NCBI RefSeq assembly: GCF_008370495.1
Contig: NZ_VTUX01000005.1
Location: 62,001 to 126,000, forward strand
Direction: 5' to 3'
DNA: 64,000 nt
From: Pseudohalioglobus sediminis
GTDB taxonomy: Bacteria; Pseudomonadota; Gammaproteobacteria; Pseudomonadales; Halieaceae
Part shown: one piece after another, positions 40,363 to 62,244 of the stretch
Numbering within the stretch: position 1 is the stretch's first letter
How the letters are laid out: every line of letters begins with the position of its first letter
Notes under the pieces: generated by a model
Databases searched by the model: none
What the model was told of the DNA's origin: nothing
The model's input: the letters and a program-made list of their open reading frames with translations, nothing else
Position numbers and translations under genes: made by a program

Positions 40363-40456
40363 TGTGCACGCAAAATAATTGGTAACTGCAAGCGAAAATA
40401 ATTAGTACACATTCAAGATATCAATCATTAACAAAACACGAAAAAATTAACACATC
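40363..40456 (+). repeat. Tn7-L-like left end with three TnsB-site-like repeats
   Basis: Begins TGTGCACG. Repeats: CAAAATAATTGGTAACT (within 40369-40388), GAAAATAATTAGTACAC (within 40392-40411) and GAAAAAATTAACACAT (within 40437-40456). The first closely resembles the Tn7-L TnsB site, known to read ACAAAATAGTTGGGAACT. Three spaced sites is also the Tn7-L number. Confidence 0.82.
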
Positions 40457-40605
40457 TTGATCGCATTATCCGGTTACAAGGTCATCAGTATGTATTGCCG
40501 CTTCGATACACGATCAGAATCAATCAGAATTAGACTCCGAAGCAGAGTTACGGTTTCGCGTACTCCCGCCGCCGACCAGCGACGGAAATACTGTGTATTC
40601 GCCCT

Positions 40606-40829
40606 CTATTTTGGCGAGTATTTGAACTTCTGACCGCCAACTGCGGCTGAATACATCAATCCACCCTTTGCCACAGTGAGGACAGCAATACCATTAGCAT
40701 ATCCAGCAGCAGTAGCGGCGCTATCAGCGTTCCCACTGGCACTTAATGAAGCCCCCCATCAACCGAGGCACCTGCGGATGCACCAGCAGTGATGGCTACC
40801 GCCCGCCGAAACCTCTGCGCGAATTTTCC
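40606..40829 (-). pseudogene. Fragment of a secreted Ala/Gly-rich protein with a frameshift
   Basis: Minus-strand reading gives FAQRFRRAVAITAGASAG, then after a six-G run a shifted frame continues LSASGNADSAATAAGY and ends VAKGGLMYSAAVGGQKFKY before a stop at 40606-40608. The two halves read as one protein if one base is lost or gained in the G run. There is no start codon in the first half; a stop precedes it. I do not recognise the family. It lies between the transposon left end and the phosphopantetheinyl transferase; the other parts of 40457-40924 show nothing. Confidence 0.45.
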
Positions 40830-40924
40830 TTATTCACAAAACTACTTTCTTTAGGCCTATGATGTGTCAGATAAATTCCCGTAGATAGGTGATCACTACA
40901 GGCACCGATACCAACTGCCCCTTT

Positions 40925-41560
40925 TCACGGCGGCAAAAAAGTGACGGGAAGAGTTCGCCAACTGAGAGTATGACCGAGAGATGTCTTGATAAGACCTGGC
41001 GTAGGAACACAACCGATCAAACCGTACACGTGTTCACTGGTTTCACATAGGTGAGCTATTGGTGGTCTATCAATGCATCCTGGCATATTTGTAACCAGAA
41101 GTTCGCCCCGTGTCAGAACAGCACGATTAAGATCGCCAAAAACACTGCCATGAAATGTCTTGAGGTAAGCCTCTTTCATAACCCAAGACTGCAAAAAGTG
41201 CCGTCGGCGAGCTCCTGGTTCAATTTGCCTAAGAGCGATAGCCTCTGCATCAGAAAAAAATTGGTCGGCTATCCCAGACCAATTTCGGTCCTGATCTAAG
41301 ACCTCAACGTCAATACCAACGGGGCCTGATGCGAGAGCCAATGCGACCGTGCCCCGACTGTGAGATATTGAGAGATGCAAGCCGGTACCTGCTCTTAATT
41401 GGTCGGCTAGCGGCCTAAAAGGCGCATCAAAATCCAGAAAAGTCGGCCGAACCTGGAGCGCAGCAAGTGCATCTTCCAAAAGCCTGCGCCCAGCATGGCT
41501 GGCCTCAGCTCTACATCGGCCAGCACAGTGGCGGCTAAAAACCGCGAGACCATCAAACAT
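40925..41560 (-). CDS. 4'-phosphopantetheinyl transferase (Sfp/AcpT type) of the pigment cluster
   Basis: Loads phosphopantetheine from CoA onto the conserved Ser of ACPs. 211 residues. Hallmarks: LSISHSRGTVALAL, the Mg-binding GIDVEVLDQ (residues ~78-86) and WVMKEAYLK (~125-133). It is divergent from the polyketide operon, 135 bp away, and presumably activates the two ACPs at 43188 and 43463. First functional cargo gene inside the transposon left end. Confidence 0.92.
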   Translation of the reverse strand: MFDGLAVFSRHCAGRCRAEASHAGRRLLEDALAALQVRPTFLDFDAPFRPLADQLRAGTGLHLSISHSRGTVALALASGPVGIDVEVLDQDRNWSGIADQFFSDAEAIALRQIEPGARRRHFLQSWVMKEAYLKTFHGSVFGDLNRAVLTRGELLVTNMPGCIDRPPIAHLCETSEHVYGLIGCVPTPGLIKTSLGHTLSWRTLPVTFLPP

Positions 41561-41578
41561 TTATCAATAAAATCATTC

Positions 41579-41660
41579 GGTTATATAACCCTGAGAGGTT
41601 ACTTTAATGACCTAATTATCCGACAAATAAATATCCGTGAATATCCGCTTTCTATATAAT
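41579..41660 (+). promoter_or_regulatory. Candidate control region of the aryl polyene operon
   Basis: The 135-bp divergent gap contains a perfect 12-bp palindrome GGTTATATAACC (41579-41590), a short repeat AATATCCG (twice, 41628-41648 region) and a TATAAT at 41655-41660, 36 bp before the first operon start. No convincing -35 is present at 17 bp, so an activator may be needed. Inference only. Confidence 0.35.
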
Positions 41661-41695
41661 CGAGGTATCAACCGAAAGCCAAGTCACACCTGGAC

Positions 41696-42427
41696 GTGGA
41701 CAGTAGCAAAATTCATCTTGGAATTGCCGGCTGGAGCAGCTGGACCCCTAGTGGCGAACATGCGATCTGCACTACTTTCCGAGGTGCCGCTTGTCCCTCC
41801 ACAGTTATGTTGGAAAAGCCCTCCCTTAAAAGCATCCCACCCATACAACGGCGCCGTCTGGGGAAGTTAGCCAGGGTTGTCTTTCATGTGCTCGAAGAGG
41901 CTATGGGCGATATCAGTGATCAAGTAGTCATCTTTAGTTCACGCATGGGTGAAATTCAGCGGACTCAATCCATCCTGGAAGCAATAGCAAGTCAACATGC
42001 CGTATCACCCGCTGACTTCAGTTTGTCGGTACACAATGCAATTGCGGGGCAATGGTCACTAATTCACAAAGTACGCCAACCACTGCTGGCCCTGGCTCCC
42101 GGAAATGGGGGCCCTGTTCCCGCACTGCTGGAAGCGTACGCACACCTGATCAGCGGCGAAACCGACCGGATTGCCGTGGTCTGCTTTGAAGAGAACTACC
42201 CCGAGTTTTATCAACCCTATATCCATGGCCCCCAGGCACCAACAGCGCTCGCCCTGCAATTGGTGCTCGATTGCAGAGAAACAACCCTTGAACTCAAACC
42301 ACTGGAGACATACTCGGGCAGAGAGACCACGGGTTTCACTCCCTTGGCAGAGCTGTTGATGAAAAAGTCTTCGCAAGTGCAGTTCAGCGACCGTAGTTCC
42401 AGCTGGGACCTTCGGATAACAGCATGA
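41696..42427 (+). CDS. Ketosynthase-like protein without catalytic half (ApeC-like chain-length partner)
   Basis: 243 residues from a GTG at 41696. It resembles only the N-terminal beta-ketoacyl synthase-like domain family found in aryl polyene clusters (ApeC in E. coli), with no TACSS-type active-site Cys. In the characterised E. coli system ApeC pairs with the ketosynthase ApeO; the partner here would be the gene at 52814. Conserved text includes QVVIFSSRMGEIQRTQSIL and PLLALAPGNGGPVPALLEA. The GTG start has a weak ribosome site. First gene of the operon. Confidence 0.78.
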   Translation: MDSSKIHLGIAGWSSWTPSGEHAICTTFRGAACPSTVMLEKPSLKSIPPIQRRRLGKLARVVFHVLEEAMGDISDQVVIFSSRMGEIQRTQSILEAIASQHAVSPADFSLSVHNAIAGQWSLIHKVRQPLLALAPGNGGPVPALLEAYAHLISGETDRIAVVCFEENYPEFYQPYIHGPQAPTALALQLVLDCRETTLELKPLETYSGRETTGFTPLAELLMKKSSQVQFSDRSSSWDLRITA

Positions 42428-43191
42428 ACGAGCGCCAAGACTTCTACTATTGGCGGGTACTCGCCACCGGAATCTGCTTCACCCTTTTTGGCGTCGGTGG
42501 GCTACTTATGGGGCTGGTATTGTTCCCGATTCTAGCGCTATTCTCCAGGGATCCGCGGGTTCGAACCCGTCGCTGTCGCCTGGTGATTCACCACGCGTTC
42601 CGCCTGTTTATCAAGCTCATCCATTCGCTGGGTTTACTAACCTACTCCCTGGACGGGGAAGAATCCTTGCGCGGTGAGGGTGTGCTGGTGATAGCAAACC
42701 ATCCAACGCTGATAGACGTGATCTTCCTGGTTGCCCAGATTCCGAATGCAAGCTGTATTGTCAAAGCAGGCTTGTTCCAGAACCCCTTCACCCGGGGCCC
42801 CGTGTCGTGGGCTGGGTATATTCCGAATACAGAGCCCGAAGAACTATTCGAAAACTGCCAGCGCCAACTAGAAGAGGGAGCCAACCTGGTCATATTCCCA
42901 GAGGGCACTCGCTCTATAGAAGGCAGACTGCATAAATTCAGGCGAGGGGCGGCCTACATATGGCTCCGTTTCAACTGCGATCTGGCGCTAGCCACACTGA
43001 ACTCTGAGCCACCCACACTGGCTAAGAACACGCCTTGGTATAAAATTCCGAGGCAGCGTTTTCACTACAGTCTGAAGGTTCGTCGGGCTGGCGAAACTAC
43101 GTTGCTACAGCCCGTCCCAGACGCAGGGGATGACGCACGCTCTATCAATCGGCAATGGCAAGAATATTTTCAGCAGGAACTGACAACATGA
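42424..43191 (+). CDS. 1-acyl-glycerol-3-phosphate-type acyltransferase of the pigment cluster
   Basis: 255 residues, PlsC-like. The HX4D motif reads NHPTLID (residues ~92-97) and the second motif FPEGTRS (~159-165). An N-terminal membrane helix (~15-40) anchors it. It would transfer an acyl chain, plausibly the polyene or the fatty acid of the lipid anchor. Start overlaps the upstream stop (ATGA). Positional equivalent of ApeD. Confidence 0.88.
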   Translation: MNERQDFYYWRVLATGICFTLFGVGGLLMGLVLFPILALFSRDPRVRTRRCRLVIHHAFRLFIKLIHSLGLLTYSLDGEESLRGEGVLVIANHPTLIDVIFLVAQIPNASCIVKAGLFQNPFTRGPVSWAGYIPNTEPEELFENCQRQLEEGANLVIFPEGTRSIEGRLHKFRRGAAYIWLRFNCDLALATLNSEPPTLAKNTPWYKIPRQRFHYSLKVRRAGETTLLQPVPDAGDDARSINRQWQEYFQQELTT

Positions 43192-43466
43192 ACGATCTCG
43201 AACAGCAGATAAAACAGCTGATCATTGACGCCCTCGATCTGGAGGACATCACAGCGGCGGATATCATTTCCGACGATCCGCTGTTTGAAAGCGGACTGGG
43301 CCTGGATTCGATCGACGCCCTCGAATTGGGCATGGCACTACAGCAAAAATTTGGTGTGACCATTGATGCAGAAGATAAGAGCACCAAAGAGCATTTCCAA
43401 TCTGTGACCAACCTAGCGAAGTTTGTTCACTCAGCTAGCACCGGTACCCAGGGAGAGACGGCATGA
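43188..43466 (+). CDS. Acyl carrier protein 1 of the pigment cluster
   Basis: 92 residues. The phosphopantetheine Ser is in GLGLDSIDALELGMAL (Ser ~residue 41), and the sequence is acidic as usual. Starts at an ATG overlapping the acyltransferase stop (ATGA). Equivalent by order to ApeE. It would carry the aryl starter and growing chain. Confidence 0.93.
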   Translation: MNDLEQQIKQLIIDALDLEDITAADIISDDPLFESGLGLDSIDALELGMALQQKFGVTIDAEDKSTKEHFQSVTNLAKFVHSASTGTQGETA

Positions 43467-43714
43467 AAACACGTGAAGAAGTCTACGGGGTTCTCTGCGA
43501 CCTATTGGTAAATATGTTCGAGGTAGAAGCGGACGATATCTCCGGCAGCGCCAATCTCTATGAAGACCTTGATGTGGACAGTATTGATGCTGTCGACCTC
43601 GTGGTGGAGCTAAAGAGTATCACTGGCAAGCAGATCGACCCCGATGAATTCAATTCGGTACGCACCGTCGACGATGTCGTATCTACCGTGGTAGGTATTC
43701 TGGGCATCGAATGA
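43463..43714 (+). CDS. Acyl carrier protein 2 of the pigment cluster
   Basis: 83 residues with the carrier motif DLDVDSIDAVDLVVEL (Ser ~residue 38). Overlaps ACP1 by 4 bp. Equivalent by order to ApeF. Two tandem ACPs are a hallmark of aryl polyene and related clusters. Confidence 0.93.
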   Translation: MKTREEVYGVLCDLLVNMFEVEADDISGSANLYEDLDVDSIDAVDLVVELKSITGKQIDPDEFNSVRTVDDVVSTVVGILGIE

Positions 43715-44292
43715 ACCGAGTCCTCCAGGTGATGACCGGGCTGGTGCTGGCGCTCTACCCACTATTGATCTTCTTTGGCCTGCAGGTCATGGAGCCAGCA
43801 CACATGGCCGGAATGCTGCTGGCCATGGCCTTGTTACGCATGGCAAGCCTACGTGCATCACCTGGCGGTAGGGGAGCGCAATTGGTACTCGCAGCCGTGC
43901 TTCTGGTAATTGCGGCCTTCACCCTGGTTGCAGAGAGCCCGAACGGGTTTCGCTACTACCCGGTGGTGGTCAACATAGTTTTTCTATCGGCATTTTTCGC
44001 CTCACTGATCAAAGGCCCTCCGGTCGTCGAACGGTTGGCCCGGTTAACCGAGCCACACTTGCCGCAGCAAGCCGTGGTTTATACACGCAAGGTAACCATC
44101 CTCTGGTGTGTATTCTTTCTGTTCAATGGCACCATCGCATTGTACACAGCAGCGTTTGCCAGTTTCGAAGCCTGGGCCTATTACAACGGCTTTCTCGCCT
44201 ACATCCTAATGGCCGTACTTTTCTCGCTAGAATGGCTGGTGCGCAGGTATGTCCGAAGGAGGGTGGATGCGACTCCTCAGCGAACTCAATAG
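43711..44292 (+). CDS. COG4648-like membrane protein of aryl polyene clusters
   Basis: 193 residues with about five to six hydrophobic helices, ending in a basic tail (RRYVRRRVDA). It matches the uncharacterised membrane protein placed after the two ACPs in these clusters (ApeG position). Role unknown; membrane docking of the complex or export help are possibilities. Starts at an ATG overlapping the ACP2 stop and overlaps the ligase gene by 26 bp. Confidence 0.8.
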   Translation: MNRVLQVMTGLVLALYPLLIFFGLQVMEPAHMAGMLLAMALLRMASLRASPGGRGAQLVLAAVLLVIAAFTLVAESPNGFRYYPVVVNIVFLSAFFASLIKGPPVVERLARLTEPHLPQQAVVYTRKVTILWCVFFLFNGTIALYTAAFASFEAWAYYNGFLAYILMAVLFSLEWLVRRYVRRRVDATPQRTQ

Positions 44293-45940
44293 GGAAAGTT
44301 TCAATCCCGATCACGTGGTGGCCCTGGCTCACTCCGGGGCTCTAAACTGGACCGATTTTTTAGCCGAGATAGATTGCTTGCGCGCCAGGCTGAGTCATCT
44401 GGAGTCAGACGAGGTTGCCCTATTCGATAACGACACCTACCGTTTCGGAGCGGCAATGCTCGCTCTCCTGGCAGAAGGAAAGCGGATTTTCCTACCCGGT
44501 GAAAATCACCAAGCCATGGCATCAACCCTTGAGTCACAGTCCATAACGCTTGTGGGTAACTGGCCCGAGAGGAACACCATCGCCCTTGACGAAAATCCCG
44601 CCACCGCACCCGCCAATCCTATCCAACTCAGCGGCCTGGTGACGGTATACACTTCAGGCTCCACGGGCACCCCGAAAGCCATCGACAAGACCCTCGCGCA
44701 AATTGACGCTGAGCTACTAGCCCTCGAAGCGTGCTTTGGCAGCGATATCGCAGATAGTGACGTCTACAGTGGCGTGAGCCACCAGCATCTGTATGGCCTT
44801 TTGTTCGGTTTTTGCTGGCCGCTGAGCAGTGGGCGCGCTTTCTGGCGCCACCCGTTTATCGATCCATCGATTCTAGCGCGCACGGCAAACCAGTCGTCAG
44901 AAGCTATCTGGATATCAAGCCCCGGCCACCTGCACCGCCTTGGCCAGGACCTGCCCTGGGACCAGGCGCGACAGGCCACGCGTGCGGTGTTTTCCTCCGG
45001 TGGCCCGCTAAATACAATTGCCGCTCAGGAGGTGTTCGAAGGTCTGGGTGACTACCCCCACGAGGTACTGGGGAGCTCGGAAACCGGCGGTATCGCACAC
45101 CGTCAACAACGTGAGCCCGGCACGCCATGGACTCCGCTGCCGTGTGTGAAGATCGCTGCCAGCGAAACCGGCAACCTCCAGGTACGGTCGCCGTTTTTGC
45201 CCGGCGACGATTGGTTTGAAACTGGGGACATACTCCTGGAGGTAACGTCCGAGGGTTTCCACTTGGGTAAGCGCAGCGACCGCATCGCCAAGATAGAGGG
45301 CAAGCGGATTTCCCTGGTTGAGGTTGAGAGCACACTAGAATCGCACCCGTTTATCCACGAAGCCTATGCGCTGGTTGTAGAGCGCCATCGCGAGGTCGTG
45401 GGCGCACTACTCAGCCTGAGCGATGAAGGCATTGCTGCGATCACAGAGCTTGGGCTGGCTAGGTTTAATAAGACGCTGCGGCAGGCCGCGATTCCGTCGC
45501 TGCCACCATTGGGAGTACCCCGTGTCTGGCGCTTCTGCCCAGGTTTACCGCGCAATACCCAGGGTAAACTGGGGGCCGACAGCTTGACGCCCTGGTTCGA
45601 GGACGACCGACTACCGCCGGCAGTGGCCCAGACCACCCGGGAGAACGGATGCACCCTGAAGGTCTGGGTTGACCAGAACTGCCGTTATTTTGAGGGGCAC
45701 TTCCCCCAAGGGCCTGTACTCCCCGGAGTGGTTCAGGTTACCTGGGCTGAGGCCTACGCACGCCGCCATCTCGATATCAGTGGCACCTTTGCGGGGATGC
45801 AGGCGCTCAAGTTCAAGGAAATCGTCAGGCCCAACTCCATGCTCGACCTGGAGTTGGATTGGGATACCGGGCGGGGTGGCCTGGAGTTTCGCTTCTCCTC
45901 TGCAGGGAAGGTGCACAGCCAGGGCCGGCTGCTGTTTTAG
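44267..45940 (+). CDS. Aryl-AMP ligase fused to hotdog dehydratase (ApeH-ApeI fusion)
   Basis: 557 residues from the ATG at 44267, chosen because GAAGGAGG lies just upstream. The first ~440 residues are an ANL-family adenylating enzyme with P-loop TVYTSGSTGTPKAIDK (~128-143), SSETGGIAHRQ and GDILLEV...LGKRSDRIAKIEG. It should load the aryl acid onto an ACP. The last ~100 residues are a FabA/FabZ-like dehydratase with YFEGHFPQGPVLPGVVQV, including the active-site His. In E. coli CFT073-type clusters these are two genes (apeH, apeI). Confidence 0.88.
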   Translation: MRLLSELNRESFNPDHVVALAHSGALNWTDFLAEIDCLRARLSHLESDEVALFDNDTYRFGAAMLALLAEGKRIFLPGENHQAMASTLESQSITLVGNWPERNTIALDENPATAPANPIQLSGLVTVYTSGSTGTPKAIDKTLAQIDAELLALEACFGSDIADSDVYSGVSHQHLYGLLFGFCWPLSSGRAFWRHPFIDPSILARTANQSSEAIWISSPGHLHRLGQDLPWDQARQATRAVFSSGGPLNTIAAQEVFEGLGDYPHEVLGSSETGGIAHRQQREPGTPWTPLPCVKIAASETGNLQVRSPFLPGDDWFETGDILLEVTSEGFHLGKRSDRIAKIEGKRISLVEVESTLESHPFIHEAYALVVERHREVVGALLSLSDEGIAAITELGLARFNKTLRQAAIPSLPPLGVPRVWRFCPGLPRNTQGKLGADSLTPWFEDDRLPPAVAQTTRENGCTLKVWVDQNCRYFEGHFPQGPVLPGVVQVTWAEAYARRHLDISGTFAGMQALKFKEIVRPNSMLDLELDWDTGRGGLEFRFSSAGKVHSQGRLLF

Positions 45941-45945
45941 TCCAG

Positions 45946-46686
45946 ATGTACCGTCCTGCGATAGTCATTCCCGTATACAACCACCCTACCACGGTGCGCC
46001 CACTACTATTGCAACTGGAAGCCTACAAACTCCCGGTGATTCTGGTTAACGACGGTTCCGACACCACCTGTACGGAAACACTGCGCGCGCTGGACCGGGA
46101 ATTTAGCTGGGCTTCGCTAATCGAGCGAGAGAACAATGGCGGCAAGGGTGCTGCTGTGAAAGCCGGATTGCGCGAAGCCGCGCAGCAGGGCTATACCCAT
46201 GCACTGCAAGTCGACGCCGATGGGCAACACGAGCTCGGCGACTTAAGTAAACTGCTATCGCTGTCACGTGGTGCACCCGAAGCCGTTATCTCTGGCGCAC
46301 CTGATTACCGCGATGTGCCGGCTATCAGGTACTACGGGCGCTACCTCACACACTTCTGGGTATGGATCAACACACTCTCCCTGGATATCGAAGATTCCAT
46401 GTGCGGTTTCAGGGCCTACCCCTTGGCGAGTACGCTAGGAGTCATTGACACGTCAGCAACAGGCGACCGGATGGATTTCGACCCCGAAATACTTGTTCGG
46501 CTGCACTGGGCGGGAGTTCAGGTAATTCAGTTCCGTACGCCCGTGCACTACCCTCAGGACGGTATTTCTCACTTCAAGGCACTGCAGGACAATATGCTGA
46601 TCAGCTGGGCTCATACGCGTATGTTTTTCGGCATGTGTCTCCGGCTACCCTTTATTCTCCAGCGTAAGTGGCAACACCGTGGCTGA
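45946..46686 (+). CDS. Family 2 glycosyltransferase of the pigment cluster
   Basis: 246 residues, GT-A fold. YNHPTTVRPLLL start, ILVNDGSD near residue 30 and the metal-binding QVDADGQHE at ~90-98. Likely transfers a sugar, perhaps in the lipid anchor of the pigment, a role suggested by synteny with ApeJ whose N-terminal half is a GT2 domain. Here the GT and acyltransferase halves are separate genes that overlap by 8 bp. Confidence 0.86.
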   Translation: MYRPAIVIPVYNHPTTVRPLLLQLEAYKLPVILVNDGSDTTCTETLRALDREFSWASLIERENNGGKGAAVKAGLREAAQQGYTHALQVDADGQHELGDLSKLLSLSRGAPEAVISGAPDYRDVPAIRYYGRYLTHFWVWINTLSLDIEDSMCGFRAYPLASTLGVIDTSATGDRMDFDPEILVRLHWAGVQVIQFRTPVHYPQDGISHFKALQDNMLISWAHTRMFFGMCLRLPFILQRKWQHRG

Positions 46687-47608
46687 CAGTCAGCGCTGGT
46701 CAGAGATTCGTGAGAATGGCTTTCTCACGGGCATGCGGTTCCTGTTTCTGGTGTATCGACTGGGAGGGTTCCTGGCCTTCCGAATCATTCTCCAGCCGGT
46801 ACTTTTGTTCTACTTCCTACGAAACAAACTCGCGCGCGACGCTTCGCTGGAGTACCTGGGCAGGTTGCAGGCCACTTTTCCTGACGACAACACGCCGGCA
46901 CCGGGCTGGTGGAATGCCTATCGCCATTTCAATGCCTTTGCCAATGCCTCGCTGGACCGCCTGGCTGTGTGGGCGAATTCCAGCATCCTGGACCGGATCA
47001 GCTTTCCCGACCGGCCTATCCTGCTGGAACAGATCGCCACCGGTAGGGGGGCGGTTCTTCTTGGTGCTCATATTGGCAATATGGAAATCTGTCGCGGCCT
47101 GTCGACACGCAACCCGGATCTGAAACTGAATATTCTGGTTCATACCCAACATGCCGACATGTTCAATCGGCTACTACGTGAAGTCGTGGGCGAAACAGCT
47201 ATTACCCTGATCGAAGTCAGTGACCTGAGCCCGGCCACAGCAATAGAGTTACAGGGAAGAGTAGATCGCGGCGAATTTGTCGCTATCCTAGCAGACCGGG
47301 TGCCGGCCAGTAGCAGCGAGCGCTGTAGCGAGCAAATGTTCCTAGGTAAGCAGGCCAAGTTTCCCGACGGCCCATTTATACTGGCTTCGCTGCTAAAATG
47401 CCCCGTTTACACCCTGTTCTGTACCCGGGAGGGCAGAGGCTATAAAATCCGCTGCCAGAAATTCGCCGATGACATAAAACTTCCCCGGTCTAGCAGGAAG
47501 CAAGCAGTAACGGGATACAGCGAACGCTACTCCAGGGCACTGGAACAAAACCTTCGCCACGCTCCCCTGCAATGGTTCAACTTCTATCCCTTTTGGGATC
47601 AGGAATGA
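46679..47608 (+). CDS. LpxL/HtrB-like lipid acyltransferase of the pigment cluster
   Basis: 309 residues from a GTG at 46679. Lysophospholipid/lipid A-type acyltransferase with an N-terminal membrane helix (~17-45) and the HX4E motif in LLGAHIGNMEI (residues ~124-134). Probably attaches the polyene or an acyl chain to the glycolipid. Corresponds to the C-terminal half of ApeJ-type fusions. Confidence 0.84.
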   Translation: MADSQRWSEIRENGFLTGMRFLFLVYRLGGFLAFRIILQPVLLFYFLRNKLARDASLEYLGRLQATFPDDNTPAPGWWNAYRHFNAFANASLDRLAVWANSSILDRISFPDRPILLEQIATGRGAVLLGAHIGNMEICRGLSTRNPDLKLNILVHTQHADMFNRLLREVVGETAITLIEVSDLSPATAIELQGRVDRGEFVAILADRVPASSSERCSEQMFLGKQAKFPDGPFILASLLKCPVYTLFCTREGRGYKIRCQKFADDIKLPRSSRKQAVTGYSERYSRALEQNLRHAPLQWFNFYPFWDQE

Positions 47609-49158: not shown

Positions 49159-49567
49159 GTGCTACGCAGAAGGCGAAATAACTGTCGAAGTTCCCTTCCA
49201 TGATATCGATGTGATGGGGATTGCCTGGCATGGACACTACGCCAAGTACTTGGAGCTGGCCCGCACCGAACTGCTCAACAACATCGATTACGACATCGAG
49301 CAAATGAAGGCCTCAGGCTATGCCTGGCCAGTAATCGAGCTCCATATTCGCTATGCAAGGCCTCTAAACTATCGTCAAAAAATCCGTGTCCGCGCGCGAC
49401 TTGCGGAGTTCGAGAACCGCCTCAAGATAAACTATGAAATATCCGACCAGCAAACCGGCAGGCGGCTCACGCGGGCCCACACAGTACAGGTAGCCCTCGA
49501 CATCGCCTCAGGTGAAATGTTGTTTGCCAGCCCAGCCGTGCTGAAGGAAAGATTGAGCCTGTTATGA
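49151..49567 (+). CDS. 4HBT-type acyl thioesterase of the pigment cluster
   Basis: 138-residue hotdog thioesterase, 4-hydroxybenzoyl-CoA thioesterase-like: VEVPFHDIDVMGIAWHGHYAKYLELAR with the catalytic Asp at residue ~18-20. Overlaps the ammonia lyase stop. Corresponds to ApeK. It might proof-read or release acyl-ACPs. Confidence 0.88.
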   Translation: MPKCYAEGEITVEVPFHDIDVMGIAWHGHYAKYLELARTELLNNIDYDIEQMKASGYAWPVIELHIRYARPLNYRQKIRVRARLAEFENRLKINYEISDQQTGRRLTRAHTVQVALDIASGEMLFASPAVLKERLSLL

Positions 49568-53995: not shown

Positions 53996-54443
53996 GCCAG
54001 ACATAGCCGAGATCCTACCGCATGCACCACCCATGGTTCTGCTGGACGAAGTTCTGGCTGACTCAACAGAAAGCATTACCTGCGCCCTGACGGTGCGGGC
54101 AGATCAACTCTTTGATAAAGACGGCACCGTACCGTCCTGGCTTGGAATCGAATATATGGCACAGGCCGTGGCAGCGTTCACCGGCCTGGAAAACTGGCGT
54201 CAGGGTCAGGCCATCAAGGTCGGGTTTCTGCTGGGTACCCGGCGCTTTAATACAGACACAGACACGTTTAGGGTAGACCAACGACTAGAAATCACCGCCG
54301 AGCGCGTCATCCAGGGCAGCAATGGGATGGCGGCCTTCGATTGCTCGGTGCGAGGGGAAGGTGTAAACCAGCACGCCACCCTCTCGGTCTACGAGCCCAC
54401 GGAAGCAGATGCCGTATCCATGATTTCAGGAGAACAGGCATGA
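53985..54443 (+). CDS. Hotdog dehydratase subunit (ApeP-like)
   Basis: 152 residues of FabZ-like hotdog type: ILPHAPPMVLLDEVL at the N-terminus and WLGIEYMAQAVAAFTGLENW. In the E. coli system two dehydratases form a complex; here its partner would be the C-terminal domain of the ligase fusion. ATGA-type overlap (11 bp) with the ketosynthase. Confidence 0.88.
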   Translation: MKDKPDIAEILPHAPPMVLLDEVLADSTESITCALTVRADQLFDKDGTVPSWLGIEYMAQAVAAFTGLENWRQGQAIKVGFLLGTRRFNTDTDTFRVDQRLEITAERVIQGSNGMAAFDCSVRGEGVNQHATLSVYEPTEADAVSMISGEQA

Positions 54444-55168
54444 CAAAAAAAACTGTGCTGGTGACTGGCTCCAGTCGCGGAATTGGTAAGGCCATCGCCA
54501 AGGAACTCGCCAAAGCGGGTTATAGTATTGTCGTTCATTATCGCTCTGGCCTGGAATCCGCTAAGGAAACCGTGCACGAGATCGAGGAACAGGGGGGCTC
54601 TGCTCGCCTTCTTCAGTTTGATATAGCCAATCGCACCCAAGTTGCAGCCGTCCTAGAACAAGATCTTGAGTTACATGAAGCTTACTATGGCGTTGTGTGC
54701 AATGCAGGTCTGGCCCGTGACAATGCATTTCCTGCGCTATCAGGCGATGACTGGGACACGGTTGTGCACACGAACTTGGATGGTTTTTACAATGTACTCA
54801 ACCCATTAGTGATGCCCATGATCCGACGCCGCGCGCCCGGTCGAATTGTAACTCTGGCGTCCGTATCCGGATTGATTGGTAACCGTGGTCAGGTCAATTA
54901 TTCTGCAGCCAAGGCTGGTATAATTGGCGCCACTAAAGCATTGGCCTTGGAACTGGCCAAACGGAAAATTACTGTGAACTGTGTAGCGCCTGGGCTAATC
55001 GATACCGATATGATCGAAGGCGCCCCCATAGAGGAAATCACCCGCACAATACCCATGCGACGGCTTGGCGAGACCAAGGAAGTAGCCGCCACTGTAAAGT
55101 TTCTCCTCAGCGATGAGGCAGGATACATCACCAGACAGGTAATCTCCGTCAACGGCGGTCTGTGCTGA
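54440..55168 (+). CDS. 3-ketoacyl-ACP reductase (FabG/ApeQ-like)
   Basis: 242-residue short-chain dehydrogenase from ATG 54440. NAD(P) motif TGSSRGIGKAIAKEL at ~10-24, NAG (VCNAGLARDN), catalytic Ser (LASVSGLIG) and YSAAKAG. Reduces the beta-keto intermediate before dehydration; absence of an enoyl reductase in the cluster fits retention of double bonds. Overlaps ApeP-like gene by 4 bp. Confidence 0.93.
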   Translation: MTKKTVLVTGSSRGIGKAIAKELAKAGYSIVVHYRSGLESAKETVHEIEEQGGSARLLQFDIANRTQVAAVLEQDLELHEAYYGVVCNAGLARDNAFPALSGDDWDTVVHTNLDGFYNVLNPLVMPMIRRRAPGRIVTLASVSGLIGNRGQVNYSAAKAGIIGATKALALELAKRKITVNCVAPGLIDTDMIEGAPIEEITRTIPMRRLGETKEVAATVKFLLSDEAGYITRQVISVNGGLC

Positions 55169-55178
55169 TAGATACCAA

Positions 55179-56399
55179 ATGAATAGAGTAGTTGTAACTG
55201 GCACAGGATGTGTCTCATCCCTCGGGACCAATTGGGTTGAAGTATATCCCCGCCTACAAAAGGCCGCTAATAAGATTCAGTATATAGAGGACTGGGACAG
55301 GTACGAGGGCTTGTTCACACGCCTTGGTGGCCCGGTTGCATGGGAGCGGCCTGCAGAGTGGTCTCGGAGAGTCGTTCGGTCAATGGGTCGTATAGCCATG
55401 ATGGCTGTATCGGCCTCTGCGGATGCGATTGAAGAGGCAGGTCTAACAGGAGATCAAATTCTAGGCAGTGGCGATATGGGCATATCGTATGGCTCCTCGG
55501 CCGGAAGCACTGCGGCGTTGGGCGAGTTCGGTAACATGCTGCTCAACGAGCGTACAGATGGCCTAAATGCTACCAGCTATATCCGCATGATGAGCCATAC
55601 CGCCCCAGTCAATATAGGCGTCTACTTCGGAATAAAGGGCCGAATTTACACCACTTCCAGCGCCTGCACATCTTCTAGTCAAGGTATTGGTTACGGTTAT
55701 GAAGCCATTCGTAATGGGCTTCAAACCGTCATGCTCTGTGGCGGGGCAGAAGAGCTTTGTGCCACGGAGGCCGCAGTCTTTGATACCCTATACGCCACTT
55801 CGACTAGGAACAAGGAGCCATCTTTGACACCTAGACCTTTCGATCGTGATCGAGATGGTTTGGTAATAGGAGAGGGAGCCTGTTCTCTAGTGCTGGAAAA
55901 CCTCGACCATGCTTTAGCACGGGGCGCCACCATATACGGAGAAATCATCGGCTTCGGTACAAATAGCGACGGCCTTCACGTGACGCAGCCTGATCACGAA
56001 TCCATTTGTCGTGTACTAAACCTGGCACTCGAAGATGCGGGAATTGCTGCTGAGGAAGTTCAGTATGTCAGTGCTCACGGCACTGCCACCGACAAAGGCG
56101 ATATTATTGAAAGTCGGGCTACTCACGATGTTCTGGGGAAAAATGTACCGATTAGTGCGCTTAAGAGTTACACAGGACATACTTTAGGAGCTTGTGGCTC
56201 TTTGGAAGCCTGGGTAACTCTGAACATGATGCGCGAGGGCTGGTTTCATCCAACAGTCAATCTCGACAATGTCGATGAGCGCTGCGCCGAGCTAGATTAC
56301 ATCACTGGCCCTGGTCGACGGATGAGTTGCGATATCGCCATGAGCAATAATTTCGCTTTCGGAGGAATTAATACATCCTTAATATTTAGGAAGTACTAG
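55179..56399 (+). CDS. Beta-ketoacyl-ACP synthase II type (ApeR-like)
   Basis: 406 residues, with active-site Cys in RIYTTSSACTSSSQGIG (~Cys164), His in SAHGTATDKGD and KSYTGHTLGACGS. Likely the initiating ketosynthase for the aryl starter, as proposed for ApeR homologues. Last gene of the rightward operon, 10 bp after the ketoreductase. The tail of the gene is more AT-rich than the upstream genes. The next gene, on the opposite strand, ends 56 bp away. Confidence 0.92.
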   Translation: MNRVVVTGTGCVSSLGTNWVEVYPRLQKAANKIQYIEDWDRYEGLFTRLGGPVAWERPAEWSRRVVRSMGRIAMMAVSASADAIEEAGLTGDQILGSGDMGISYGSSAGSTAALGEFGNMLLNERTDGLNATSYIRMMSHTAPVNIGVYFGIKGRIYTTSSACTSSSQGIGYGYEAIRNGLQTVMLCGGAEELCATEAAVFDTLYATSTRNKEPSLTPRPFDRDRDGLVIGEGACSLVLENLDHALARGATIYGEIIGFGTNSDGLHVTQPDHESICRVLNLALEDAGIAAEEVQYVSAHGTATDKGDIIESRATHDVLGKNVPISALKSYTGHTLGACGSLEAWVTLNMMREGWFHPTVNLDNVDERCAELDYITGPGRRMSCDIAMSNNFAFGGINTSLIFRKY

Positions 56400-56454: not shown

Positions 56455-56892
56455 CTAGTCTACCCTGCCCCTAGATATCATTTCGTCCAACGCCAGGTTA
56501 ATTATGTCATCATGCGTCTTGCCCATCGCTGCAAGTGATGTCTGATGAGATTCACCGTAAGCGATAATGTAGTTAGACTTTCTATCTCTAACCTCAATCT
56601 TCAAGTTCAGTAAGTACATCCGCATATCCCAATACCAGTTGTCAACATAACTGACTATGTGCGTGGCGTCTTCAGGAACACTTCCCCTTTCGCCGTGAGT
56701 AGCGTTGAATCCTCGCTCATTGAGTATGTTAGAAATATTGCTAGCCAAGTTGCGCTCATCTTTCGGCTGTCTCTCGACATAAAAAACCTTATCGTAAGCT
56801 TCTGATGGTAGCTTTTGACCATGCTGACTGGAGACACACCCGCTCAGAGAGAGAACAACCAAAGTTAATGCCAAAAAAATCCTTGTCATCAA
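56455..56892 (-). CDS. Small lipoprotein of the cargo, function unknown
   Basis: 145 residues; lipoprotein signal LALTLVVLSLSGC with Cys ~residue 19. The rest (YVDNWYWDMRMYLLNLKIEVRD) has the look of a small beta-strand-rich envelope lipoprotein. No family recognised. Last gene of the leftward group that faces the polyketide operon. Confidence 0.78.
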   Translation of the reverse strand: MMTRIFLALTLVVLSLSGCVSSQHGQKLPSEAYDKVFYVERQPKDERNLASNISNILNERGFNATHGERGSVPEDATHIVSYVDNWYWDMRMYLLNLKIEVRDRKSNYIIAYGESHQTSLAAMGKTHDDIINLALDEMISRGRVD

Positions 56893-56946
56893 ATCTATTC
56901 CTTTTCAACCAGTTATATCAAACACGCCGAGCACAAAGACAAACAA

Positions 56947-57375
56947 CTAACCACCGGACGAAGCTTCAAGCAATTCAGCTTGAATTTGCTCATCGAGTAA
57001 TATTATCCACTTATTATAGTTGCGATGGATTTTTCCATTCTTTTCATCCAAACCATCGCTACTTTGAAGCGTAATGTTGTAGCTAAGTTCTGAGTAATCT
57101 ATAAAGACTGTGGCATGGTGACGACCACGCACTGTAATTTTTGCTTGGACAGTATCCTCATCTAGATTGGATGCCTTCCAACGCTTGAATGTCGCAGCTT
57201 TAACAATAGCTTGGTTTACTTCTTGTTTTGTTAAAAGTGTTCCATCGTGCTTCGGTGGAACCAGTGAGTCTTGTACATTGTGGATTGGTTGTTGCGTACT
57301 ACAAGCACTCAACAATGAGAATAAAATTGAAATCAGAGCCAATTTTTTGAACACGAAGCCACTCCATCGGTGCAT
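56947..57375 (-). CDS. Small lipoprotein of the cargo, function unknown
   Basis: Start set at the ATG at 57375 (MHRWSGFVFKKLALISILFSLLSAC), giving 142 residues; a further ATG 18 bp upstream (57393) is possible. Lipoprotein signal ends at Cys ~25. Body QEVNQAIVKAATFKRWKAS, AKITVRGRHHATVFIDYS resembles a small mixed alpha/beta domain; not recognised. Lies 29 bp past the halogenase-like gene stop, probably same operon. Confidence 0.76.
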   Translation of the reverse strand: MHRWSGFVFKKLALISILFSLLSACSTQQPIHNVQDSLVPPKHDGTLLTKQEVNQAIVKAATFKRWKASNLDEDTVQAKITVRGRHHATVFIDYSELSYNITLQSSDGLDEKNGKIHRNYNKWIILLDEQIQAELLEASSGG

Positions 57376-57404
57376 GATAAAACCTAGAATCACTTTGATT
57401 ATCG

Positions 57405-58628
57405 CTAATTACTACAGTAACGCCACAGCGCGTTCAATCGCCTTTCAGGATTGGCAACGTATGGGTTTTCTATATCCCAAGCATAGCCTGCCAGAATAGA
57501 CGAAATCATATTGCGTATTTCTTCAGACTGCTGCTCATAAAATATTACATCCTGGAAACGGCCATCATACCAAGCCGTTACGAATGCCCTGAAGGTGTCC
57601 ACCCCCTGCTTCAGTGGCTCGGCATACTCTACCTGCCAATCTACATTAGTTCCCTGAAGCTGGCGGTCTAGAATTTTCGCCGCTAAGCTGGCGGAGTGTA
57701 AGGCGATGGTTACACCCGAAGAAAAAACCGGATCTAGGAATTCACCTGCATTCCCTAACAAGGCCCAAGATGCTGTTGCCAGCGTACTAACATCCGCAGA
57801 ATAGCCCGTTATCTGCCGGACTTCAGTATCCCACTGCGCCTCACACAATAGCTGATTGAGCTCCGGATCTTCTACAACGATAGAGCGTAATCTCACATCC
57901 AAATCATCTGGGTATTGATCTAAAAACTCAGGTTCTGCTACTACGCCAATCGAGCAACGGCCATCGCTAAATGGTATCAACCAATACCAGACATCCTTGT
58001 GAGCAGGATGTACGGTGATAAGAATCTTATTTCGATCGAATTTACTGTTTGTAATACGATCTTCTATATGACAGAACAACGATGAACGCACAGGAAAATC
58101 TGAGGGGTGCTCCAGATCAAATAGCCTTGGCAGCACCCTGCCAAAACCACTGGCATCAAGAACAAATCTCGCTCCCAACTCTACAACTGTTTGATCGGGT
58201 GTAATACAGGTTACCGTTACCGATGAATCATCGATCTCAACATTTTCTATCTTATGTTGGTAGCGTATATCGGCACCAAGTCTCTCAGCTTCATTCGCCA
58301 AAATCCGGTCAAACTCCGCCCTCTTGACCTGAAATGTTTCTCCAGGCCCAGCAGTAAACTTTTCTCGAAAATCAAAGCTACTGTAGGCCCCTTGGCGCTG
58401 GAAAACAGCGCCGTTTTTCTTCTGGAACCCGCCTGATTCAACCGCTGCGGTCATCCCGGCTTCCTCAATAAACTCCATACAGTGGGGCAAGAGGCTTTCG
58501 CCAATCGAAAAGCGCGGGAAGTTATCCTTTTCTAAAACAATGACTGAGTAGCCTTTTTGGACCAATAGAGCGGATGCTACTGCTCCTGAAGGCCCCGCGC
58601 CGATAACAATAACGTCGTACATTTCCAA
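57405..58628 (-). CDS. Flavin-dependent halogenase-like oxidoreductase
   Basis: 407 residues. FAD-binding GAGPSGAVAS at 10-19, GESLLP, and the halogenase signature WxWxIP as W214-Y-W216-L-I218-P219 (DVWYWLIPF). Lysines at 70-71 (FQKKNGAVF) align with the region of the catalytic Lys of tryptophan halogenases. FLDPVFSSGV closes the core. It could chlorinate or brominate the aryl head (xanthomonadins are brominated), but some aryl polyene-cluster homologues are annotated only as FAD oxidoreductases. A reductase partner was not seen in the window. Confidence 0.78.
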   Translation of the reverse strand: MEMYDVIVIGAGPSGAVASALLVQKGYSVIVLEKDNFPRFSIGESLLPHCMEFIEEAGMTAAVESGGFQKKNGAVFQRQGAYSSFDFREKFTAGPGETFQVKRAEFDRILANEAERLGADIRYQHKIENVEIDDSSVTVTCITPDQTVVELGARFVLDASGFGRVLPRLFDLEHPSDFPVRSSLFCHIEDRITNSKFDRNKILITVHPAHKDVWYWLIPFSDGRCSIGVVAEPEFLDQYPDDLDVRLRSIVVEDPELNQLLCEAQWDTEVRQITGYSADVSTLATASWALLGNAGEFLDPVFSSGVTIALHSASLAAKILDRQLQGTNVDWQVEYAEPLKQGVDTFRAFVTAWYDGRFQDVIFYEQQSEEIRNMISSILAGYAWDIENPYVANPERRLNALWRYCSN

Positions 58629-58648
58629 GGTAGATCAGCGGGTGGATT

Positions 58649-59089
58649 CTATTCTTTCAAGGTTACGACATCGCCCACAAATGTCACACCGGCCATGATG
58701 GCTCCATTGCCGCACTCAAACTCAGTTTCACTCACAAACTCGTTCTTTTTGTAGTAACTCTTAATGTTAATGACGGCGTTGCCACCCTCTTTGGCTATAC
58801 GGTCTTGGAAACTGAGCATCGCTGACAAGAAAGCCCACTGACAAGCAAACTCATCCGACTTACCGACCGCATTTGTTTTCTTGTTGGACATGAACTCACC
58901 GTGACTATCCTCTACCGATGCGTGGGCAGCCGATCCAAATAGATAAGTGTATCCCTTGTTGAGCTTTTCTTTGGCCGCGCTAATATTCATGGCTTCACTG
59001 ATCGAGTAACGATTTCTATCATCACGTGCGTACACACTAGCCGAGAGAAATATTGAGATCATGAGAGCCGATAGGACCAGGTGCTTCAT
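58649..59089 (-). CDS. Periplasmic protein of the cargo, function unknown
   Basis: 146 residues with a signal peptide (MKHLVLSALMISIFLSASVYA). Mature part has FACQWAFLSAMLSFQDRIAKEGGNAVINIKSYY and ends IMAGVTFVGDVVTL; homologues of this type are sometimes annotated as excinuclease ATPase subunit-like, which looks wrong as no ATPase motif is present. 20 bp before the halogenase-like gene start. Confidence 0.78.
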   Translation of the reverse strand: MKHLVLSALMISIFLSASVYARDDRNRYSISEAMNISAAKEKLNKGYTYLFGSAAHASVEDSHGEFMSNKKTNAVGKSDEFACQWAFLSAMLSFQDRIAKEGGNAVINIKSYYKKNEFVSETEFECGNGAIMAGVTFVGDVVTLKE

Positions 59090-59117
59090 TAATTGATACC
59101 TATTTTTTAATATCGAT

Positions 59118-59816
59118 TCATATTTCCGAGAGTATCTTCTCTCGCTTATCTAGATATTCTTTTTCTGTAATCAAATCCTCTCGATACAGAGACTCTAGCT
59201 TTTTAATCCTAATACCAACTGCAGTTTCGGACTGTTTAGTAGCCGCTAGAATGAACTCATCATCCGATAGCATTTTATCTATTGTCTTGTTCATGGCTAA
59301 TTCAGCGAGATCGCGCAAGGTATCGACATCGCCAAAAACGCCTGCTCCTACCCCACTTTCAGTTTCATCAGTCTTATATGACTTCTCAAACACCGCATTT
59401 CTGCTCTCGTTTTCAATTAACGATATGCGTACATGGGCATGTGCTTCTCTGTTGAAATAGTAACTACAGTCAAATTTCGATATGGATACTTTCAGACTAT
59501 AAGGCCCATCAATATCCGTACTATAGATCCCACTCTGCCCCAAAGCGGCTGTGTACATTTGATCGACGATGATGTCCGTAGATTGCTCTGTTTGAAGAGT
59601 CTTCAATACATTGCCATAACCACCACGGATAGCACCAAGCCAGTTACTTTCTGTGCCTCGGTCATCAGATACCACAATAGAGTTAATTGTCGGACCAGCT
59701 TCAGGTGCTGCAATTCCTGAGCCCTCGTACTCAACAACTGTTTGATGTGTAGAGCACGCGGAAATGAAAATCAGAATCGTGAAGGTAAAAGAGAGCCGGG
59801 AAAAAAGTCTAAGCAT
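59118..59816 (-). CDS. Lipoprotein with C-terminal SHOCT-like motif
   Basis: 232 residues; lipoprotein signal FTFTILIFISAC with Cys ~residue 21. C-terminal LESLYREDLITEKEYLDKREKILSEI matches the short SHOCT module (L...G/DLITxEEY...K..IL), often an oligomerisation motif. First gene of the leftward five-gene group; its promoter lies in the AT-rich gap to the right. Confidence 0.8.
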   Translation of the reverse strand: MLRLFSRLSFTFTILIFISACSTHQTVVEYEGSGIAAPEAGPTINSIVVSDDRGTESNWLGAIRGGYGNVLKTLQTEQSTDIIVDQMYTAALGQSGIYSTDIDGPYSLKVSISKFDCSYYFNREAHAHVRISLIENESRNAVFEKSYKTDETESGVGAGVFGDVDTLRDLAELAMNKTIDKMLSDDEFILAATKQSETAVGIRIKKLESLYREDLITEKEYLDKREKILSEI

Positions 59817-60311
59817 ATAGATGGTCCATCACCCAATATTTGAGAGCGGCAGATTATCATAAATCCGAAATCCCTTTCCTGATTTCAGTCAGTTTATGGG
59901 GACTCACCAATAGGCCCGGAGATATGCAATGTCTGGCATTTAACTACGCAGGACCTCACACCGAGTAAGAGCCGGTAGACGATACCTCTGGTGCGCAGGC
60001 TTCCGCTCAGCATATAAAACACACAAATCGAATAACTACTGGCCAGTAAAAATGTGTCTTTTTAGCTGACACCCGAGCCAGAAAATGAAGTTAATTCCCC
60101 GATAAAACAATGTGTTATCAACATTTTTGCGCAATTTAACTACGAATTTAAGCCCCCAACTCTCTAATGACAAGATCGTCATGAAAAACAACAAATACGA
60201 CGGGGAATGCACAGAAAACCAAATAAATACTATATATATCAATATGTTATGATTGTCATATGTATTTATATACAGTATTGTCTGTCATCATATCCACCTA
60301 AAGGGGTAAAT
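59817..60311. other. AT-rich gap between cargo and tnsA remnant
   Basis: No supported gene in 495 bp. It contains short repeats (TTTAACTACG twice, near 59939 and 60135), an imperfect palindrome ATGACAAGATCGTCAT at 60167-60182, and should hold promoters for the leftward lipoprotein operon and the tnsA remnant. No 22-bp phased TnsB-site series like that at the transposon ends was found here. Confidence 0.6.
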
Positions 60312-60563
60312 ATGGCAAGAGGAGGGCGCTATCAGTCAATACAGGATTACGACCGCAACCTGAGAAAGGGCGTGGGGACGGGAACAATGGATAGTTATCA
60401 GCCCTGGTTTAGAGTCCAGGATGTTCCTGGTAACTCTGGGCGATCTTCCAAGCCGTTTGGAGTTAAAACATGTCGTCAGCATCACTTGCTATCAGATATC
60501 GAAAAAAATTGCTTTCCGTACTTCGAGTATCAACAAGGCGTGGTTGATTTAAGGGAACAGTTT
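60312..60563 (+). pseudogene. tnsA: tnsA remnant (N-terminal 84 residues)
   Basis: TnsA is the endonuclease that cuts the 5' ends of Tn7. From ATG 60312 (AAGGGG just upstream) the reading is MARGGRYQ...GTMDSYQPWFRVQDVP, GRSSKPFGVKTCRQHHLLSD, YFEYQQGVVDLREQF, matching Tn7 TnsA positions ~1-84, including its DYxPWxxVQEVP and KTGRxHHLLSDLE segments. The frame then meets the IS left end at 60564 and stops at 60584. The catalytic domain (after residue ~84) is gone. Confidence 0.9.
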
Positions 60564-60671
60564 TGTAAATACCCTATCCAATAGTCCCGCGCAAATCTGG
60601 AGTTCTCAGCCATAATCAATGAGGCAAGGAGAACGACAAGGCGTAAATCCCGATTCGCTGAATCCCAGATT

Positions 60672-60905
60672 GTGAAGGTGCTGAAGGAAGTCGAAGGCGG
60701 TAGACAGGTGATGGAAGTCTGCCGCGAGTACGGCATTTCAGATGCGACCTACTACAACTGGAAAGCCAAATACGGCGGCATGGAGGTATCCGATATACGG
60801 CGACTGAAGGAGCTTGAAGAGGAGAACGGCCGGCTCAAACGGATGTTCGCCGATCTCAGTCTCAAGCATGAAGCCCTTAAGGATATCGTTGAAAAAAAGT
60901 TTTAA
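60672..60905 (+). CDS. IS3-family OrfA (transposase helix-turn-helix subunit)
   Basis: 77 residues from a GTG at 60672, though homologous sequence (RRKSRFAESQI) extends 11 codons upstream without a standard start. HTH segment EVCREYGISDATYYNWKAKYGG followed by a leucine-zipper-like EELEEENGRLKRMFADLS. Ends at TAA 60903-60905, after an A7 run (60892-60898) where a -1 shift would make the OrfAB fusion. Confidence 0.82.
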   Translation: MKVLKEVEGGRQVMEVCREYGISDATYYNWKAKYGGMEVSDIRRLKELEEENGRLKRMFADLSLKHEALKDIVEKKF

Positions 60906-61760
60906 GGCCGGCAGCGAAGCGCGAGCTCGTCGACTTCGCCAGTCAGATGCACGGGCTGAGCCTCAGGGCAGCATGCCAGATACTGAACCTCAGCCGCTCT
61001 GTCTACCGCTACCGGCCAGACACGGCCAGACACGGCCAAGGATACGCCCGTGATTGAAGCTATTCATGCGGTCGTTGAGGAATTCCCTGGCTGGGGCTTT
61101 CCCAAGGTGTACAAGACGCTGAGGCGGCGTGGATACGGCTGGAACCATAAACGCGTGCATCGCGTTTATTGCCTCCTGCGGCTAAACAAGCGGCGCAAAG
61201 GCAAGCGCAGGCTGCCAACCCGTAATCCAGAGCCACTGGCGGTACCGAGCATGGCCAATCAGTGCTGGTCGATGGACTTCATGAGCGACACCCTACGCGA
61301 TGGTCGTCGGTTCCGCACCTTCAATGTCCTGGAGGGTTTCAATCGGGAAATCCTCGCGATAGAGATAGACCTGAATTTGCCAGCAGCCAGGGTCATCCGA
61401 GTACTGGATCGGATTGCTGAGCAAAAGGGCTTTCCAGAGAAAATGCGCTGCGACAACGGGCCGAAATTTGTGTCCATCGCGTTGGCAGGTTGGGCAGAGA
61501 ATCACGGCATACACCTGGACTTTATCAAGCCAGGCAAGCCTACCCAGAACTCGTACGTTGAACGCTTTAACCGAACCTACAGGGACGAGATCCTGGATCT
61601 GTACCTGTTCAGTTCACTGACGGAGGTGAGGACTCTCACCAACGAATGGATGAGGAAGTACAACGAACAGCGGCCTCATGACTCGCTCTGAGACCTGACT
61701 CCAATCGAGTATTTGGTGGCCGCCAAACAGGCGGAAAACTCTAGTAATGCGTGGAGCTAA
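60902..61760 (+). pseudogene. IS3-family OrfB (DDE integrase), broken
   Basis: Reads PAAKRELVDFASQMHGLSLR, then LNLSRSVYRYRPDTAR up to a 10-bp tandem duplication (CCAGACACGG at 61016-61025 and 61026-61035) that shifts the frame. The DDE core continues from 61050: WSMDFMSD, CDNGPKFVS and ERFNRTYRDEIL. A TGA at 61689-61691 replaces the Gly codon in HDSLG-DLTPIEYL; beyond it the frame continues to the native stop at 61758-61760. Two independent lesions. Confidence 0.87.
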
Positions 61761-61776
61761 TCAGGGGATACTTACA

Positions 61777-62119
61777 AGTCTACCTGGCAGTGCCCGAAAA
61801 CCCGATAATCTACTTCGGGCCTCGCCCGTTCCTTCCGCGGATTCTTATTTTTGAACTCAGTTAGAAACCATTCAGAATAGCAGCTAGACCCATCAAGAAA
61901 ATCTATAAGTGGGGCTAGGTTATGTCTTCTTATAGCAGCGCTACCATCAATGCCCAACTGTTCATTGATTACATCGAACTGTGTTGGAATAAGTCGTACA
62001 GCCCTTCTATAAACTCCAAAGAGATTAGAGGGTGTTAACTTAACTCCCGCCAACAACCTACGTCTTATTACGATACTAAGGAAGGATTCCCGATCATGAG
62101 GAAAAAACATCGAGTGCAA
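61777..62119 (-). pseudogene. tnsD: tnsD/TniQ remnant (N-terminal ~114 residues)
   Basis: TnsD recognises the attTn7 sequence at the end of glmS. The leftward frame from ATG 62119 begins MHSMFFPHDRESFLSIVIRRR, with YRRAVRLIPTQFDVI, IRRHNLAPLIDFL and a terminal GHCQVD. These match the TniQ N-terminal pattern FPxPxxESxYSxxAR...G.SPxxLxxxxYG...xHTLFPLYxPF. Similarity is recognisable but low. The gene ends at the IS right end (61776). Zinc fingers and most of the protein are missing. Confidence 0.7.
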
Positions 62120-62154
62120 GACTAAAGCCGGCCAAAAAGGAACATAAACGTTAT

Positions 62155-62244
62155 ATTTACTAATTTTTATTTATTGAGTTGGCAATTTTTCTGTCAGTGC
62201 GCATTAATTATTCTTTTATGTTCAAGAATTTTTAGTTCTGCACA
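62155..62244 (-). repeat. Tn7-R-like right end with four phased TnsB-site-like repeats
   Basis: Read inward from 62244 on the minus strand: TGTGCAGAAC, then repeats CTAAAAATTCTTGAACAT, AAAGAATAATTAATGCGCAC, ACAGAAAAATTGCCAACTC and AATAAATAAAAATTAGTAAA. Core ATT ends lie 17, 38, 60 and 82 bases from the end, i.e. 21-22-bp phasing. Four abutting sites at this end match Tn7-R. The tnsD remnant starts 36 bp further in. Confidence 0.82.

Follow-up and report, generated by a model that had tools for sequence, protein, structure and literature searches.

Islands of the Tn7-like type are a familiar finding at glmS. For Tn7 and its relatives, a 5-bp target duplication has been described. One account (PMC11406308) gives as end features TGT/ACA termini, overlapping sites beside the attachment (att) site, and spaced sites at the other end, and a cargo survey indicates that few complete pathways are carried by Tn7-like elements (PMC8649781). 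In the 64,000-nucleotide stretch of the Pseudohalioglobus sediminis genome analyzed here (the window; NZ_VTUX01000005.1, positions 62001 to 126000, i.e., contig C19:62001-126000 of the 4.43-Mb genome G000), a 21.9-kb segment behind glmS (40363-62244) is most likely a degenerate Tn7-like transposon in attTn7, with close-set TnsB-type sites beside glmS and an aryl polyene cluster as cargo.

Set against Tn7 and Tn7-like elements at attTn7, the segment shares the TGT/ACA ends, the close-set TnsB-type sites on the att side, the location ∼25 bp past glmS, a TnsA remnant and a probable TnsD remnant. It differs from them in lacking any complete tns gene, in the reversed direction of tnsA, in a flanking repeat of 4 bp rather than 5, in a diverged TnsB-site consensus and in its biosynthetic cargo. 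A preliminary description of the locus, made from the sequence, knew of no described case of such a cluster as Tn7 cargo. This holds for aryl polyenes, for which we found no case in the open-licence literature as far as its text was accessible, most subscription papers lying outside the search, but a biosynthetic precedent does exist: the 34.8-kb Pbo island of Pseudomonas syringae pv. phaseolicola, which carries a nonribosomal peptide synthetase/polyketide synthase cluster and Tn7-like bordering genes (PMC8473136). Like the present segment, Pbo is thus a biosynthetic cluster bordered by Tn7-like genes (tnsA, tnsB, a tnsC pseudogene, TniQ and TnsD-type genes); unlike it, Pbo contains another type of cluster and is flanked by 18-nt imperfect direct repeats, and the accessible part of its description leaves glmS unmentioned (PMC8473136).

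Ends and location of the segment

The segment opens with TGTGCA at exactly 40363 and closes with TGCACA at 62244, giving it the TGT/ACA termini of Tn7-like elements at both ends. Its glmS-side (right) end (62145-62244, minus strand) carries four TnsB-type sites whose AATT cores lie, inward from glmS, at offsets 16, 37, 59 and 81, that is, in steps of 21, 22 and 22 bp. The far (left) end (40363-40455, plus strand) has TnsB-type sites at 40370, 40393 and 40438, all directed inward and more widely spaced than on the right, with AATT cores at offsets 16 and 39 in the first two; the offset of the first core is therefore common to both ends. Several predicted TnsB sites per end, with the tight set on the att side, are an arrangement seen in Tn7-like elements. 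The preliminary description had the TGTGCA termini, the equal distance to the first core, the numbers of repeats (three left, four right) and the right-hand spacing of 21 to 22 bp correct, but 40438 is the better position for the third left repeat. Its statement that the first left repeat is near-identical to the TnsB site of Tn7-L was too strong; the left site seems to resemble the Tn7-L sequence, one indel apart.

To compare the two ends, a profile built from the four right sites alone was run along the window in both directions. It ranked the left sites at 40370 and 40438 eighth and ninth, with 9.2 bits each, after the four sites used for training and three unrelated matches (47613, 41625 and 54960), and the site at 40393 scored 7.4 bits. 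On the opposite strand of the left end, nothing exceeded 3.0 bits with this profile. When the 110-bp left end was shuffled 5000 times with dinucleotide content preserved, at least one site of 9.2-bit strength arose in 388 shuffles and two such sites in nine; in five, one such site fell precisely on the offset common to both ends. The segment also stands out by its G+C content, 52.3% compared to 60.6% in the remaining window.

As a side observation on site arrangement, one comparison locus (L170:10983-11123) has three close copies of GAGTAATAAAG..CATACT, two exact and one variant, between glmS and tnsA, which illustrate clearly how TnsB-type sites can overlap.

Between the right end and the glmS stop codon there are 23 bp (62245-62267), as previously described and as expected of the TnsD pathway with its insertion ∼25 bp past glmS; the gene itself occupies 62268-63998 on the minus strand, where the window ends inside it. 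The nearest matches of GlmS among named sequences are from Halieaceae metagenome-assembled genomes (72 and 67%). In all 12 comparison elements measured, the TGT ahead of the first site is located 22 to 25 bp past the glmS stop, with two of the 12 having further TGTs nearer the stop; left out of this measurement were L182, whose glmS-like match is 49%, and L179, L181 and L184, which have no glmS match. Six further named loci with TnsA beside glmS show the TGT at 24 to 25 bp in five cases, the remaining one (L015) having none in the first 40 bp.

If the segment is an insertion, relatives should show the site without it. Seven genomes of the same genus were found and six examined, G004 being excluded because its glmS runs off the contig. 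In G001 and G005, no cluster is present behind glmS; instead, glmS is followed by a stretch of ∼1.0 and 1.8 kb, respectively, that holds a single gene as read from the sequence, then by the TonB-dependent receptor (71 and 75% identity) and the flank genes p36227 (54 and 70%) and p35634 (64 and 65%). This receptor gene is the host flank in our window (38083-40296, minus strand) and sits 1 to 2 kb downstream of glmS in these two relatives. The preliminary description had expected it to follow glmS directly in genomes lacking the cluster; it is indeed found behind glmS, but with one gene between. Part of the flank is kept in G002, G003 and G007, where p36227 lies at most 0.6 kb from glmS without a TonB receptor, and G006 is uninformative, its contig ending 5.5 kb downstream of glmS with no flank gene. 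At the level of genes, attTn7 is thus empty in the siblings.

Independently of the cluster, the DNA behind glmS holds a single gene in two congeners, a different one in each (L117:100-1930, and the 10-18 kb end of L111, a reversed locus, ∼1 kb behind glmS). As read from the sequence, these genes are patatin-like and outer-membrane-like, which gives the site the look of a minor hot spot.

Remnants of the transposition genes

Inside the segment, we found a clear remnant of one tns gene and a probable remnant of another, both of which the preliminary description had missed. The first is the start of tnsA, encoding the N-terminal 84 residues (60312-60563, plus strand) within an open reading frame (ORF) at 60207-60584. 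A phmmer search of this ORF against PDB chains returned 1t0f (E 5.4e-14) and 1f1z (8.1e-14), and the TnsA of pB39_H matches the remnant in tblastn with 49% identity over 90 residues. The remnant points towards glmS and is cut by an IS3-family insertion sequence (IS): in 10 of 16 TnsA alignments the match stops at 60563, the base before the IS, and in the other six at 60575-60593, i.e., 12 to 30 bases on.

The IS3-family element (60564-61776, plus strand), recognized by its rve and HTH_21 domains, sits between the tnsA remnant and a TnsD-like ORF. A second copy on contig C23 is 78% identical, aligned over 60576-61776. Both copies begin with TGTAA just before the aligned part, matching the inverted right terminus (TGTAAATACCC / TGTAAGTATCC), and the start at 60564 was set from these terminal repeats. 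The bases flanking the IS, TTT and AGT, give no target duplication.

On the other side of the IS, the ORF at 62110-61777 (minus strand), which starts MFFP and reads MFFPHDRESFLSIVIRRRLLAG..., is a probable N-terminal remnant of tnsD (TniQ family), as judged from profile alignment and shuffling. Against 12 TnsD proteins, hhalign aligned it with the first ∼70 residues at a probability of 40.5% (P 0.00029). Pairwise, the scores with the TnsD proteins of L176, L172 and L181 were reached by 0, 1 and 4 of 500 shuffles, respectively; these three of the 12 are the clear cases, the other nine exceeding the shuffles less clearly or not at all. The score summed over all 12 was reached by one of 1000 shuffles. 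No Pfam family matched the ORF at E 1 or below, a PDB search returned no Tns match, and searches of 293 genomes of the order gave nothing convincing (eight others at E ≤0.1, the best at 0.005), as did those of plasmids.

Two comparison loci illustrate TnsD-like genes elsewhere. In a genome of the same family (G766), L216:7835-13891 holds tnsABC together with a TnsD-like gene spread over two ORFs, and nothing on that contig matches glmS. In L180:8631-11565, an attTn7 element, two adjacent TniQ/TnsD-type genes follow tnsC.

Of the set formed by tnsABC and a TniQ-family gene, only the tnsA N terminus and the probable tnsD N terminus were seen in the segment. TnsB and TnsC were not found there by tblastn with 16 TnsB and 15 or fewer TnsC proteins from the comparison loci, the best matches having E values of 0.017 (inside the AMP-ligase gene) and 0.14. 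Searches with TnsA fragments, which detect TnsA elsewhere at ∼40% identity, gave one match only in the genome; with no second TnsA found, the element is probably immobile now. The Pfam models Mu-transpos_C, TniQ and TnsA-N found nothing in the genome either, which is weak evidence since 14 control genomes likewise yielded no match over the cut-off; Mu-transpos_C was the only genome-wide search for TnsB, and none was made for TnsC. Such gene content fits a dead member of the Tn7-like group rather than a live one. Beyond what had been described, the element is degenerate: tnsA is cut, tnsB and tnsC were not found in it, and an IS3-family element lies at the break.

The aryl polyene cluster

The cluster (40925-56399) was delineated by domain and NCBIfam searches. 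It begins with a phosphopantetheinyl transferase gene on the minus strand, followed by genes for a protein with a ketosynthase (KS) N-terminal domain, an acyltransferase and an acyl carrier protein (ACP; 43463), with a second ACP-like ORF at 43155. The middle part comprises IspA-like, AMP-ligase/ApeI, glycosyltransferase, LPLAT, aromatic ammonia lyase, thioesterase and LolA-like genes. An RND/MMPL-type exporter, a putative lipoprotein, a KS, a dehydratase, a ketoreductase (KR) and another KS complete the order. The joint presence of KS, KR, ACP, ammonia lyase, AMP-ligase, exporter and LolA suggests a full aryl polyene set. Several NCBIfam matches in the cluster, including those to the FlxA and FlxB models, fall below the cut-off, and the dehydratase ORF (53985-54443), with no NCBIfam match, was assigned by its position and its homologues in other clusters.

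Downstream lie genes that are all on the minus strand. A FAD-dependent halogenase-like oxidase (57405-58628) accompanies the cluster in G005 and further relatives as well, and a small secreted-type protein (58649-59089) is found beside it in G005, too. Two small putative lipoproteins (56455-57393) have no match in other cluster loci at E 1e-4; the ORF at 59118-59816 encodes a putative lipoprotein with no function assigned.

In gene content and order, the cluster resembles the aryl polyene/flexirubin-type clusters of relatives, above all that of G005, whose gene order is the same; amino acid identities are 77% for the last KS, 74% for the lyase, 41% for the exporter, 38% for the phosphopantetheinyl transferase and 23% for one lipoprotein. 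All cargo frames are open, and in the KS region amino acid identity (77%) exceeds DNA identity (∼70%), both of which would fit selection for function.

What sets this cluster apart from other loci of its type is its location inside Tn7-like ends at attTn7. The G005 cluster is on another contig than the glmS of that genome, where it begins right at the contig's edge. Behind it come a gene that has no match in G000, G003 and G007 and then a putative Mrp-type antiporter operon; no phased sites or transposon ends were found in 40 kb, its left side being the contig end. Within this region (L209:1-20000), the orthologous cluster adjoins a small secreted-type protein gene and the antiporter operon. 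The same flank gene and the genes following it, the operon included, are present in G001, G002 and G006 (L236-L238), with no cluster genes in 20 kb. None of 10 other cluster loci, three of them contigs of 5.6 to 11.7 kb, has a tns gene or glmS in the DNA examined, and no cluster was found at any of 80 named glmS loci, where isolated KR or FAD-enzyme relatives only were detected (L005, L006, L018 and L034). The ammonia lyase occurs at E 1e-100 or better in two of eight genomes of the genus, namely the present one and G005, and in six of 140 of the family, 78 of the latter having a completeness of 90% or more and a contamination of 5% or less. The cluster thus has a patchy distribution and has occupied more than one site, and among the loci examined it is seen inside Tn7-type ends here only.

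Origin of the segment

The proposal that the segment, pigment cluster included, is a Tn7-like insertion at attTn7 is supported by the attTn7 spacing, the matching ends with their repeated sites, the tnsA remnant, the probable tnsD remnant and the flank genes without the cluster in relatives. Entry by TnsD-type targeting, as put forward in the preliminary description, is inferred from the location and the faint TnsD-like remnant. On this account, TnsABC+D transposition would have brought in the element with the cluster already aboard. The transposition module would later have received an IS3-family element, and a deletion that began at this IS would have taken what remained of tnsA, all of tnsB and tnsC, and the terminal part of tnsD; the loss of the tns genes would then have fixed the cluster in this lineage.

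Several observations weigh against this account. The flanking direct repeat, CTGG abutting the left end (40359-40362) and the right end (62245-62248), measures 4 bp instead of the 5 bp of a Tn7 target duplication; a one-base loss at one junction would explain the difference. The window's sites fit a TnsB profile from distant elements only moderately (62152 second at 11.5, 62217 at 6.1, 40368 at 5.9), and the ends are not well singled out, the top match in the window being an unphased AT-rich stretch at 60219 (16.0). Conversely, a profile of the window's own sites does not recover the ends in four comparison elements. The identification of TnsD is weak, no intact copy of the element was found, and a base-level empty site was not obtained, the DNA between glmS and the receptor being unalignable between these species. 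Finally, tnsA points towards glmS, whereas it points away from glmS in all 13 comparison loci with a glmS match. The same canonical direction is seen in all six loci with TnsA beside glmS among the 80 named glmS loci (up to 10 kb on each side); five of these six also have TnsB and TnsC, L043 ends within tnsA, and a lone TnsB-like match lies further off in another of the 80, L042.

The direction of tnsA is also an argument for two adjacent or nested Tn7-like elements, with tnsA derived from a second element and the cluster being cargo of the first only, or for later entry of the cluster into a resident element by another route. The IS and the AT-rich DNA near the junction could be taken in its favor. 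Against it, the outer ends match each other, and no third end was found at 59817-60320 upstream of tnsA: neither profile detects a phased site cluster there, and the single AT-rich matches present reach 16.0 at best, on the wrong strand. We regard this explanation as unlikely. That the island was brought in through homologous recombination in the flanking genes, or through some other integrase, and that its end repeats are AT-rich by chance, seems very improbable. Such an arrival would be compatible with the lack of an intact transposase, with a 4-bp repeat that is not diagnostic, and with the 10 cluster loci elsewhere that show neither a tns gene nor glmS in the DNA examined, yet it leaves the shuffle controls, the att spacing and the tnsA remnant unaccounted for.

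Within the reading as a single degenerate Tn7-like element, the order of its genes can be explained in two ways. Should the order seen today be the original one, tnsABC and tnsD faced each other, with tnsD first inside the att-side end, an unusual layout that may be a variant. Alternatively, a once canonical module may have been turned round by recombination involving the IS, a possible but clearly less favored version to which the absence of a target duplication at the junction and the second IS copy in the genome lend some weight. However, the TnsD-like start occupies the place just inside the glmS-side end, ∼130 bp in, where a canonical tnsA begins, and a single inversion therefore does not restore the canonical order. 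A natural convergent layout with one deletion at the IS is the explanation with the fewest steps, inversion or a second element being the alternatives.

As a probable degenerate Tn7-like transposon, the segment illustrates the fixation of cargo once transposition genes are lost, at an insertion site that leaves glmS intact. Only tentatively would we generalize that aryl polyene clusters travel as Tn7 cargo, and that a Tn7-like lineage with convergent layout, to which this element would belong, brings entire metabolic clusters to attTn7 and afterwards loses its transposition genes. A Tn7 element offers a tangible, site-specific means of carrying a complete 15-kb pathway, and a possible route for such clusters between bacteria.

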